64,000 nt of DNA from Pelagibacterium luteolum (GTDB lineage Bacteria > Pseudomonadota > Alphaproteobacteria > Rhizobiales > Devosiaceae): positions 665,119 through 729,118 of the forward strand of contig NZ_FNCS01000001.1 in the NCBI RefSeq assembly GCF_900100665.1. Direction: 5' to 3'. This document shows positions 60,938-64,000 of this stretch, one piece after another (position 1 is the first letter of the stretch; each line of letters begins with the position of its first letter). Under the pieces are notes generated by a model. It did not search any database and was not told the origin of the DNA. It saw only the letters and a list, made by a program, of their open reading frames with translations. The translations under genes were made by a program, and so were the position numbers.

Positions 60938-62248
60938 TTACTCGGCGACGGCTTCAGAGCCACCGCAGGTTTCGGTCTCAGTGTTGTAGTTGCCGCAGTT
61001 GATCGGATCGGTCCAATCGGCTTCGAGAACTGCGGATTCGGGGAGGAAGTCGGACCAGGCGTCGCCCGGCACGAGGTCTTCGGTTTCCCAGACCACGAAG
61101 AACTGGCCGTCATCCTGGATTTCGCCGATCAGGACGGGCTTTGTGATGTGGTGGTTGGGGAGCATTTCAGCGATGCCACCGGTGAGATTGGGCACCTGAA
61201 CGCCGACGATGGCATCGATCACCGCGTCCGCGTCGGTGGTGCCGGCAGCCTCTACGGCTTCGACCCACATGTTAAAGCCGATATAGTGGGCCTCCATGGG
61301 ATCGTTGGTCACCCGATCTTCCGAACCGATATAGTCATGCCAGGCGGCGATGAACTCTTCGTTTTCGGGGGTCTCGACGCTCATGAAATAGTTCCAGGCG
61401 GCAAGGTGACCGACCAGAGGGGCGGTATCAAAGCCCGAAAGCTCTTCTTCGCCCACCGAGAAGGCAACGACGGGGATGTCTTCAGCCGCGACGCCCTGAT
61501 TGGCCAACTCGCGGTAGAAGGGCACGTTGGCGTCGCCATTGATGGTCGAGACCACGGCGGTCTTGGGGCCTTCCGAGCCGAACGCGACGATGTCGGAAAC
61601 GATCGTCTGCCAATCCGAGTGACCGAACGGAGTGTAGTTGATCATGATGTCGTCTTCGGCAACCCCTGCATCGAGCAGATATTGCTCGAGGATCAGATTG
61701 GTCGTCTGCGGATAGACGTAATCGGTGCCGGCCAGAACCCAGCGCTCGACGCCTTCCTCTTCCATCAGATAATCGACGGCAGGGATGGCCTGCTGGTTGG
61801 GGGAAGCGCCGGTATAGAACACGTTGCGCTGGGATTCTTCGCCCTCGTACTGGACGGGATAGAACAGCAGCGAATTGAGTTCTTCAAATACAGGAAGGAC
61901 CGACTTGCGGCACACCGATGTCCAGCAGCCGAAAACTGCATCGACTTCGTCGACTTCGATCAGGCGCCGCGCCAGTTCGGCGGCCAAGGGCCAATCGGAC
62001 GCGATGTCGACGACGACGGGCTCGATCTGGCGACCCAGGATACCGCCGGCTTCGTTCTGCTGCTCGATGAGCATCAGCATGACGTCGCGAAGCGTGGTTT
62101 CGGAAATCGCCATTGTGCCCGAAAGGGAGTGGAGAATGCCGACCTTGATCGGGCCTTCATCCTGGGCGGCGACGGGCGAAGAAATCAGTGTTGCGCTCAT
62201 GGCCGAAGCCACAAGGACGCCCCCTATGCGTTTGGTCCAGTCTGTCAT
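60938..62248 (-). CDS. urtA: urea ABC transporter substrate-binding protein UrtA
   Basis: The product is a 436-residue periplasmic protein. The signal peptide (1-29) ends SPVAAQ. IKVGILHSLSGTMAISETTL, AVFGCWTSVCRKSVLPVFEE, LFYPVQYEGEESQRNVFYTG and NDPMEAHYIGFNMWVEAV are UrtA marks and include ligand residues. The mature protein is strongly acidic. CGGAGGAC with ATG four bases later is the ribosome site. It heads the urea uptake and urease operon behind a sigma-54-type promoter. The whole leader (62252-62277) is complementary to a candidate small RNA encoded 280 bases away on the other strand. Confidence 0.96.
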   Translation of the reverse strand: MTDWTKRIGGVLVASAMSATLISSPVAAQDEGPIKVGILHSLSGTMAISETTLRDVMLMLIEQQNEAGGILGRQIEPVVVDIASDWPLAAELARRLIEVDEVDAVFGCWTSVCRKSVLPVFEELNSLLFYPVQYEGEESQRNVFYTGASPNQQAIPAVDYLMEEEGVERWVLAGTDYVYPQTTNLILEQYLLDAGVAEDDIMINYTPFGHSDWQTIVSDIVAFGSEGPKTAVVSTINGDANVPFYRELANQGVAAEDIPVVAFSVGEEELSGFDTAPLVGHLAAWNYFMSVETPENEEFIAAWHDYIGSEDRVTNDPMEAHYIGFNMWVEAVEAAGTTDADAVIDAIVGVQVPNLTGGIAEMLPNHHITKPVLIGEIQDDGQFFVVWETEDLVPGDAWSDFLPESAVLEADWTDPINCGNYNTETETCGGSEAVAE

Positions 62249-62289
62249 TTTGTCCTCCGACAGTTGCTGTTTGCACCGGGAAGACGAGT

Positions 62290-62306
62290 CGCAAGAAGCA
62301 TGCCAG
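62290..62306 (-). promoter_or_regulatory. sigma-54 type (-24/-12) promoter of urtA
   Basis: On the minus strand CTGGCATGCTTCTTGCG fits the -24/-12 consensus (TGGCAC-N5-TTGC) with the GG and GC at correct spacing; one base of TGGCAC differs. Transcription would begin near 62279, about 31 bases before the urtA ATG. RpoN promoters with NtrC are the standard control of urea uptake genes. I did not find a clear NtrC palindrome upstream. Confidence 0.65.
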
Positions 62307-62455
62307 CGGTTTGACGCTGCCGTGCCGCGAGACGTTAAGAGAGGGTAAACACGCAGGAATCAGGGAACCTTTTTCATCGCCGATGCATTGCGACCGCAGG
62401 CCTTGCCGCGAGGGGGGCACAGCGGGGTCTGGCCTTCCATATCAGCGGTGATGAA

Positions 62456-62485
62456 TTGATAGGCACGGCTTTGCGCGTGTACTAT
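62456..62485 (+). promoter_or_regulatory. sigma-70-like promoter of the candidate small RNA
   Basis: TTGATA (62456-62461), 18 bases, TACTAT (62480-62485). Transcription would start near 62492. A second pair, TTGCGC (62471) and CATAGT (62493) with 16 bases between, is weaker. Confidence 0.5.
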
Positions 62486-62491
62486 TGTTGT

Positions 62492-62625
62492 GCATAGTTT
62501 TCAGGCATTTGCGCAATGACAATGTGCATAAGCTGGCGTTACAGTGATGTGCCGGAGTCCTCCGGCAGAGGTTGTTTGCACCACAATCTCGAGAGGCCCC
62601 GTACGCGCAAGCGTGCGGGGCTTTT
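62492..62625 (+). ncRNA. candidate small RNA antisense to the urtA leader
   Basis: A transcript of about 134 nt is proposed between the promoter at 62456-62485 and a strong terminator. Hairpin 1 is TGCCGGA / TCCGGCA around GTCC (62550-62567), so UCCUCC, an anti-Shine-Dalgarno sequence, is half in its loop. Hairpin 2 is GAGGTTGT / ACAATCTC (62568-62590, one G-T). Hairpin 3 is the terminator, an 11-bp stem with a GCAA loop and TTTT (62596-62625). Bases 62557-62582 can pair with the urtA leader over 26 positions. No open frame in it has a ribosome site. I do not recognise a known RNA family. Confidence 0.55.
62596..62625 (+). terminator. intrinsic terminator of the candidate small RNA
   Basis: GCCCCGTACGC, loop GCAA, GCGTGCGGGGC, then TTTT. 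No protein gene lies just upstream on this strand, so it must end some other transcript. Confidence 0.8.
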
Positions 62626-62672
62626 GTGTTTGGGGTCGCTTGGGGAGCCATGTCGCTGAACCCACCCCAAGT

Positions 62673-62803
62673 GTCATCCCGGCCTTGAGCGGGGATCCAG
62701 TATGCTCGGAGGGCGTGTTGACTTAGAGGGTGAGGCTGCATTGCAAAGCCTGCGTCTTTCAAAAGCGGAGCATACTGGGTACCGGGTCTTCGCCCGGGAT
62801 GAC
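62673..62803. repeat. composite palindromic repeat, copy C
   Basis: Left module GTCATCCCGG CCTTGAG to AGTATGCTC, a centre of about 60 bases unlike copies A and B, then GAGCATACTGGG and CCGGG CTTCG-type CCCGGGATGAC. It is 131 bases long, longer than A and B because of its centre. Confidence 0.85.
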
Positions 62804-62929
62804 GGGTGGTGGGGAGGAAGGGTGATGAGCCAAAGCATAGGTGCGAGGTGTTGAGGTGACGAGCGCGTGACTCCTCGCCCCGCACAAAAGTGGATTCCCC
62901 TTTTCTGCGAAGCGCTTTAAGCAGGGGGC

Positions 62930-64000
62930 ATGACTGCTCTTGCCGAATTTGCGATGCTTTCCCATGGCTGGCGCCGGGCGCTGCTGCTGATCGTGGCGGG
63001 TGCGATCGCTGGGCTGTCGGCGGCGCCATTGTTTATCTTGCCGGCCCTGTTTTTGGCGCTGCCCGTGCTGGTCTGGGCGCTCGATGGGGCGGAGCGGGGC
63101 CGGGGGCTGCTGCATGCGGTGTTTGGTCCAGCCTTTCGGATCGGGCTGTTTTTCGGCTTTGGCTATTTCGCGGCGAGCCTCCACTGGATCGGGGCGGCGT
63201 TTTTCGTTGATGGTGGATGGCTGCTGGCGGCGATGCCTTTCGCGGTGGCGGGGCTGGCTCTGATCCTTGCGATCTTCTGGGGACTGGGCACGGCGCTGGC
63301 GTTCGTCTTCTGGTCGTCAGGCGCCGGGCGCATTTTTGCACTTGCGGTGGGGCTGACGCTGGCCGAACTGGCGCGCGGCTTTTTGTTTACCGGCTTTCCG
63401 TTCAATCTCCTGGGCTATGCTCTGACCGCCAATGTCGAGATGATGCAGGCGGCGAGCCTTGTCGGGGTCTATGGGCTGACCTTTGTTGCCGTGCTGCTCG
63501 CCGCGACGCCGGCCCTGGTGTGGCCGGGTGCCGAGCGGACAATGGTCGCGCGTGTCCTGCCGCTGTTTGTGGCACTGGGCGTGATTGCCGCGCAGGTGGG
63601 GTGGGGCAATTACCGCGTCAACCAGACAGAGACCGTGCCGTTCGACGACGTGGTGATGCGGATCGTCCAGCCGGTGATCCCGCAGGACGTCAAATGGCAG
63701 ACCTTTGCCCGCGAAGAAACGATCGTGCGCCTGCTCGACCTGTCGACGATGCAGACCGGCCCTGACGATCTCGGGCTCGACGACGTGACGCACCTTGTCT
63801 GGCCCGAGGCGGCGATCCCGTTCTTTTTGTCCGACGAGCCCGAACTTCTGGCGCGGATCGCGCGCGAATTGCCCGACGATATCTGGCTTCTGACCGGCGC
63901 GCCGCGCGAGGCCTATGGCACCAATGGCGAAATCGTTGTGGGCGCCAAGCCCTATAATTCCATCCTCGCCTTCAATGGCGCCGGCGAGGTGGTGACCTCG
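62930..64000 (+). CDS. lnt: apolipoprotein N-acyltransferase (5' part)
   Basis: The first 357 codons of an inner-membrane enzyme that adds the third acyl chain to bacterial lipoproteins; it runs off the window end. Helices fill about residues 15-225, with WGLGTALAF, LARGFLFTGFPFNLLGYAL (family mark) and LVGVYGLTFV. The nitrilase-like periplasmic domain then starts, with IVQPVIPQDVKWQ and the catalytic Glu in LVWPEAAIPFF, and later GAKPYNSILAFNGAG. ATG 62930 has AGGGGG just upstream. The gene stands alone after the repeat. Confidence 0.93.
   Translation, partial: MTALAEFAMLSHGWRRALLLIVAGAIAGLSAAPLFILPALFLALPVLVWALDGAERGRGLLHAVFGPAFRIGLFFGFGYFAASLHWIGAAFFVDGGWLLAAMPFAVAGLALILAIFWGLGTALAFVFWSSGAGRIFALAVGLTLAELARGFLFTGFPFNLLGYALTANVEMMQAASLVGVYGLTFVAVLLAATPALVWPGAERTMVARVLPLFVALGVIAAQVGWGNYRVNQTETVPFDDVVMRIVQPVIPQDVKWQTFAREETIVRLLDLSTMQTGPDDLGLDDVTHLVWPEAAIPFFLSDEPELLARIARELPDDIWLLTGAPREAYGTNGEIVVGAKPYNSILAFNGAGEVVTS

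Follow-up and report, generated by a model that had tools for sequence, protein, structure and literature searches.

A divergent RNA gene complementary to the urtA leader

Does the spacer upstream of urtA hold a dedicated regulator of urea uptake? We addressed this question in a stretch of Pelagibacterium luteolum DNA of 64,000 nucleotides (NZ_FNCS01000001.1, positions 665,119 to 729,118 of the forward strand), which we call the window and in which positions are counted from the first letter. The host family is Devosiaceae and the host order Hyphomicrobiales. An initial annotation had proposed that the spacer encodes a small RNA that diverges from urtA and is complementary to the urtA leader and ribosome site. 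Our analysis supported this proposal, because changes in one partner were matched in the other. Comparison of genomes shows the anatomy of the predicted RNA gene, its long conservation, its linkage to urtA and its covarying complementarity to the leader. We consider it likely, from these comparisons, that a dedicated divergent RNA covers the first part of urtA mRNA, beginning at about +1 and reaching the ribosome site, and keeps it from being translated until NtrC and sigma-54 produce the mRNA in excess. The features on which this reading depends are the following.

60938 to 62248, minus strand: urtA, encoding the 436-aa substrate-binding protein of a urea ATP-binding cassette (ABC) transporter (TIGR03407, above cut-off in this genome; Pfam PF13433, Peripla_BP_5).
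62252 to 62277, minus strand: predicted target within the leader of urtA; it begins at about +2 and runs to the ribosome site, CGGAGGAC (62252-62259).
62291 to 62305, minus strand: sigma-54 promoter of urtA, TGGCATGCTTCTTGC, kept in relatives.
62516 to 62545, plus strand: sigma-70-like promoter of the RNA, ATGACA (62516-62521) and TACAGT (62540-62545), a pair kept in relatives.
62551 to 62625, plus strand: small RNA gene of about 75 nt with a probable start at 62551-62552, recognized by its promoter, structure and homologues in the family.
62551 to 62566, plus strand: hairpin 1, from folding; its 3' arm carries the stretch that would pair with the ribosome site.
62557 to 62582, plus strand: leader-complementary segment of the RNA.
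62568 to 62590, plus strand: hairpin 2, from folding; its loop UUGCACC (62576-62582) holds the seed end.
62592 to 62625, plus strand: intrinsic terminator with a 15-bp stem and a U-run; double-sided changes mark 7 of the 10 stem pairs in the model.

The plus-strand segments 62557-62582 and 62252-62277 align ungapped with 22 identities in 26 positions, exactly as first claimed. The runner-up for a 26-nt match in the window, on either strand, reached 16 of 26. When 62249-62640 was dinucleotide-shuffled (n = 1000), the best internal 26-nt match was at most 20, and 0 of 1000 shuffles reached 22. Because urtA mRNA corresponds to the minus strand, a rightward RNA through 62557-62582 would be able to pair with the urtA leader. 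The two 12-pair arms described for this duplex were found; the 2-base bulge said to separate them was not, and a 2 x 2 internal loop takes its place. A urtA start near 62279, also proposed earlier, is reasonable, since the sigma-54 element at 62291-62305 is kept in relatives. We named this element by what we take to be the sigma-54 consensus.

Covariation of the RNA and the leader

We compared 49 sigma-54 urtA loci that had the RNA and a complete leader; L122, whose leader runs off the contig, was excluded. The set includes near-identical pairs, such as L007/L008 and L057/L109. A 9-nt seed is exactly paired in 45 of the 49 loci. RNA GTTTGCACC occurs with leader GGTGCAAAC in 40 of them and RNA GTTTACACC with leader GGTGTAAAC in five, and mixed combinations were found in none of the 49. 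All four deviating leaders belong to Pelagibacterium. A further matched form pairs GGGTGTTTGCACC with GGTGCAAACACCC (L044). On a UrtA tree of 52 of the 62 sigma-54 urtA loci (10 loci with less than 150 aa of UrtA were left out), the seed change from C-G to U-A arose twice, both times in both partners; one of the two changes falls within a single genus (f40, g55).

The same correspondence extends to a second order. We built covariance models R1, R2 and R3 from the RNA, R3 from RNAs alone. Among 385 genomes of the class, R3 matched two, this genome and G617 of another order. At E <= 0.1, matches occur in four of the five genomes of the genus to which G617 belongs, the fifth (G892) having no RNA match; in the order of G617, 3 of 36 genomes match at E <= 0.01, all from that same genus. 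The four R3 loci of the second order, which form two nearly identical pairs, all adjoin urtA, and their leader, GGTGCAACAACAACCC, faces an exact RNA complement of 16, 16, 16 and 18 nt. We count these loci as out-of-sample confirmation. The check proposed at the outset, that changes in one copy be matched in the other among relatives, was therefore passed, both by the two changes on the tree and by the second-order complement. Over all pairs, a locus's own RNA and leader gave duplexes of -34.2 kcal/mol on average, versus -32.5 kcal/mol for permuted partners (0 of 2000 permutations). Taken across relatives, the predicted pairing of RNA and leader is well supported.

Linkage to urtA and distribution

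Within Pelagibacterium, the RNA locus is present in 11 of 13 genomes, and the same 11 carry urtA. The covariance models found the RNA in 41 of 136 family genomes; urtA is present in 40 of these 41, versus 98 of the 136 overall. R1 gave 35 matches outside the genus (30 from the family search and 5 from a further search), and in 31 urtA is divergently adjacent (23 of the first 24 fetched and 8 of the remaining 11). Of the other four, two have urtA about 5 kb away (G033 and G043), one has no urtA that we found (G113), and L054 was rejected as a chance match, since the core is missing and no urtA lies in the locus that was fetched.

Across the order, the RNA matched at E <= 0.01 in 29 of 397 genomes, and it is present in eight further families. 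This search brought in 21 new loci, 10 of which adjoin urtA. L122 leaves its contig at the leader, and the remaining ten (L115-L121 and L124-L126) look like chance terminators, having no urtA in the fetched locus and lacking the core. An exact 19-mer of the core occurred in 29 public stretches. Urea transporter gene urtA lay within the 8-kb locus in 23 of these, at a distance of about 5 kb in two of the 23. Three others are cut near the RNA by the end of the locus, in one (L087, the same as G008) urtA falls outside the locus, and two were discarded as chance: L098 and L103, metagenome-assembled genomes labelled as other phyla, with neither urtA nor a terminator. A strict pattern joining the sigma-54 element to the leader was found in 1 of 385 class genomes, this one; the form seen in the second order would escape this pattern. 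In Shinella, Ensifer and Sinorhizobium meliloti, the leaders of plasmid urtA genes (three records) are of another type.

Promoter, structure and terminator of the RNA gene

The RNA had been thought to start near 62490. We moved the probable start to about 62551, because the -35 (TGACA) and -10 elements at 62516-62545 are kept by relatives. Another pair, TTGATA/TACTAT (62456-62485), was rejected as the RNA promoter, since inspection by eye did not show it upstream in the ten same-genus relatives. The pattern TGAC-N16-21-TANNN[TA] precedes the RNA in 28 of the 49 loci, versus a mean of 1.1 and a maximum of 5 when single bases were shuffled. Nine family loci and all 12 loci outside the family lack it.

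Folding of 62490-62628 gave z = -4.69, and the strong terminator of the initial annotation is present at 62592-62625. In an alignment of 32 homologues that was fitted to a model, and is hence biased toward structure, 95.8% of cells were paired and 8 of 20 pairs carried double changes (0 of 500 shuffles). The structure signal within the genus alone is weaker (11 of 500 shuffles). From TCCTCCGGCAG through the end of hairpin 2, nine aligned same-genus sequences show no variation; in most loci outside Pelagibacterium, the stem of hairpin 2 is shortened to GAGG/CCUC. The locus therefore has what marks a base-pairing small RNA in sequence, namely its own promoter and Rho-independent terminator, conserved structure and covarying complementarity to an mRNA.

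We searched Rfam with window positions 61000-64000 and found nothing above gathering score. The only matches, isrL (28.1; gathering 35) and trpB (27.4; gathering 59), were too weak and were rejected. Nine relatives gave no Rfam match at E <= 0.1.

Target prediction and proposed mechanism

With the cost of unfolding included, binding of the RNA at the urtA start was predicted at -19.3 kcal/mol. Among 89 starts of long open reading frames taken mechanically from the window, the next best was -9.8 and the mean -2.7 kcal/mol. A duplex scan without accessibility, covering 800 kb of the 4.3-Mb genome on both strands, placed urtA (-46.5 kcal/mol) first after the RNA's own antisense and thus top among trans sites, with the next at -37.9 kcal/mol. 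The combined leader pattern occurs in this genome only at urtA and at the RNA gene itself.

An NtrC-like dyad lies between the two promoters.

62491 to 62507, no strand assigned: dyad TGC-N11-GCA, enriched over shuffles.

The intergenic regions of the 49 loci hold 56 such dyads, with at least one in 37 of the 49 regions, versus 8.8 +/- 3.0 (maximum 16) in shuffles. Nine loci have two dyads exactly 31 bp apart. We assume that TGC-N11-GCA is the form of an NtrC site. The portion of the Caulobacter NtrC paper available to us (PMC10274813) shows no consensus letters. The dyads suggest that urtA is under nitrogen control, with the sigma-70-like and possibly constitutive RNA acting as a catch.

We propose the following sequence of events. 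The RNA of about 75 nt would be transcribed from its own sigma-70-like promoter, divergently from urtA. The RNA loop, which reads UUGUUUGCACC in most relatives, would pair with the first nucleotides of urtA mRNA (GGUGCAAACAA), at approximately the sigma-54 start. From there the duplex would extend onto the ribosome site, CUGUCGGAGG, by way of the 3' arm of hairpin 1, which in the window is CCUCCGGCAG. While urtA mRNA is scarce, this pairing would block translation and probably destabilise the message. During nitrogen shortage, NtrC and sigma-54 would make urtA mRNA in excess of the RNA, and urea uptake would be switched on. We infer expression of the RNA, threshold behaviour and nitrogen control from this arrangement, and repression as the sign of the effect from occlusion of the ribosome site CGGAGGAC.

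Loci that depart from the pattern

Several observations weigh against this mechanism. In Pelagibacterium itself, four of eight sigma-54 leaders (three of them distinct) depart from the 9-mer despite an invariant RNA core, and two hairpins partly sequester the pairing segment. The double changes that mark conserved structure lie mostly in the terminator (seven of eight pairs); one is in hairpin 1 and none is in hairpin 2. Among the 12 loci outside the family, the own pair had a lower energy than both swaps with family partners in only four, which suggests that matched bases count more than total energy.

We also compared the 49 loci with 13 sigma-54 urtA loci of the family without detectable RNA (L159, at a contig end, was excluded). 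In favour of the mechanism, an intact leader 9-mer accompanies the RNA in 45 of 49 loci and is found in 4 of 13 loci without it, with a Fisher probability of 1.9e-5 that, like the permutation test, ignores relatedness and so inflates the association of leader and RNA. Two of the 13, L141 and L154, carry apparent decayed remnants of the RNA. Four supported independent pairs on the tree gave a mean of 3.2 agreeing, 0 opposed and 0.8 with no difference; with only four such pairs, significance is out of reach.

The initial annotation had named relatives that keep the terminator and lose the complementarity as evidence against its proposal, and six genomes are of this kind. In G003, G008, G009, G033 and G043, a hybrid histidine kinase gene and a LuxR-type regulator gene separate urtA from the RNA gene, which is intact, and urtA is about 5 kb from the RNA, with a different promoter and a leader that is not complementary. 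In G113, the RNA is present and no urtA was found. We read the first five as probable cases in which the urtA promoter was replaced and the RNA left behind. The intactness of the RNA in these five could also reflect a second target.

Many urtA genes of the family have no sigma-54 element. Of 17 such loci, 16 have urtA divergent from a hybrid histidine kinase gene, and L171 gave no match. The kinase has HisKA, HATPase and receiver domains and a long N-terminal part resembling membrane segments. A hybrid histidine kinase and a LuxR-type response regulator adjoin urtA in L207 (3796-8119), L182 and L185. This kinase/regulator module seems to be an alternative control of urtA that swaps with the sigma-54/small-RNA module in the family.

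Alternative explanations

The RNA may have several targets of which urtA is just one, like AbcR-type RNAs with motifs against ribosome sites. We regard this as possible, though rather unlikely. The Pelagibacterium core stays invariant also in genomes with a decayed or replaced urtA leader, and the RNA contains CCUCC, an anti-ribosome-site stretch. However, 31 of the 35 matches outside the genus adjoin urtA, and the seed changes along with the urtA leader, which a broad target set would resist. Moreover, only urtA and the RNA gene fit the leader pattern genome-wide, and urtA is far ahead in the 800 kb scanned.

A less probable alternative, to which we give little weight, is that the RNA pairs with the urtA leader and activates it, by opening a CUGUC/GACAG hairpin around the ribosome site or by shielding the 5' end from decay. 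CTGTC..GACAG is present in 41 of the 62 sigma-54 urtA leaders, where it would loop out the ribosome site and reach the first codons, and the seed sits at the extreme 5' end of the message. Yet the duplex covers the ribosome site in the window and reaches CGGAG in many relatives, so initiation should be blocked.

The direction could also be reversed, with the urtA leader acting as a sponge for the RNA and so keeping it from other mRNAs. The RNA does persist in genomes without the urtA leader. However, neither the genome search for the leader pattern nor the 800-kb energy scan gave a second conserved target, and the adjacent, divergent arrangement resembles a dedicated regulator and its target. 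We find this reading very improbable. Least credible of all is a DNA operator bound by one protein at both promoters, with RNA pairing incidental: shared operators would likewise covary, but the motif is non-palindromic, forms part of a structured transcript that has a terminator, is interrupted by spacers of variable length and has a G-U wobble in its CUGUCGG part, and the remodelled 16-nt exact complement of the second order is hard to fit with a protein site.

Relation to known systems

Repression of urtA by a dedicated divergent RNA would, by analogy, be most like IstR-1/tisB in its working. As in IstR-1/tisB of Escherichia coli, shoB-ohsC, zor-orz and dinQ-agrB, the RNA gene lies divergent beside its target and not opposite it. 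According to the part of the IstR-1 literature drawn on here, IstR-1 is divergently encoded and shares 21 nt of complementarity with the 5' untranslated region of its target, DNA damage induces tisB and not istR-1, and IstR-1 binds a standby site far from the ribosome site (PMC4147584). Unlike that standby-site binding, the pairing predicted here begins at about +1 and extends to the ribosome site. The target also differs: UrtA binds a nutrient and has 436 aa, whereas the targets in those pairs are small hydrophobic toxins. Thus, of the characters of type I toxin-antitoxin systems, a divergent RNA complementary to the 5' untranslated region is present and a small hydrophobic toxic peptide is absent; because UrtA is a binding protein of this size, the locus is not a toxin-antitoxin pair.

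AbcR1/AbcR2 and NfeR1 of S. meliloti act on many genes encoded elsewhere. They are alphaproteobacterial RNAs directed at ABC-transporter mRNA, as is predicted for the present RNA, and NfeR1 uses three anti-Shine-Dalgarno motifs; the sections of that paper available to us (PMC8844928) do not mention urtA. Unlike AbcR or other Rfam families, the RNA described here has no covariance-model match above gathering score. It would resemble NrsZ, NsiR4, NfiS/NfiR and the glnA 3' untranslated region RNA in that RNA regulation is tied to nitrogen supply. We know of no nitrogen-linked RNA that is encoded beside urtA or that targets it. Among the matches listed from open-licence literature on urtA/urea, NtrC, and Devosia and Pelagibacterium small RNAs, the RNA is undescribed in the portions covered, which does not establish its absence from print.

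To our knowledge, few metabolic genes are seen to show covariation between a small RNA and a single mRNA across distances as large as these. With it, both the target and the register of pairing can be tested before any genetic work. We are evenly divided on whether the locus is an ancient cassette, in which an NtrC/sigma-54 transport gene and a divergent RNA catch, reaching from about the first nucleotide to the ribosome site, place wiring like that of type I toxin-antitoxin systems in the service of metabolism, in two alphaproteobacterial orders, and can as a unit trade places with a sensor-kinase module at the same promoter. If the proposed mechanism is correct, the divergent-RNA-catch design of type I toxin-antitoxin systems also serves nutrient uptake, urea acquisition in soil and marine bacteria has an extra post-transcriptional layer, and the RNA represents a new family unmatched by any Rfam model.

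Other elements near the locus

Extra leader-like sites were seen in G001-G003 and G005. A second conserved hairpin-terminator element lies on the strand of the RNA, about 300-500 nt upstream of urtA, in L141, L148, L154, L161, L166 and L180. It reads GCTGACGCTCCTTTG...GCGCGAAACTTCGGTTTCGCGCCC, or near variants, followed by a T-run, and is possibly another small RNA or a leader.

The right-hand neighbour of the urtA spacer is the following gene.

From 62930 rightward, plus strand: lnt, as named in the initial annotation.

Between the terminator and this gene, we noticed by eye an inverted repeat at 62680-62805, TGTCATCCCGG...GATCCAGTATGC with a reverse-complement copy, which looks like a dispersed repeat element.
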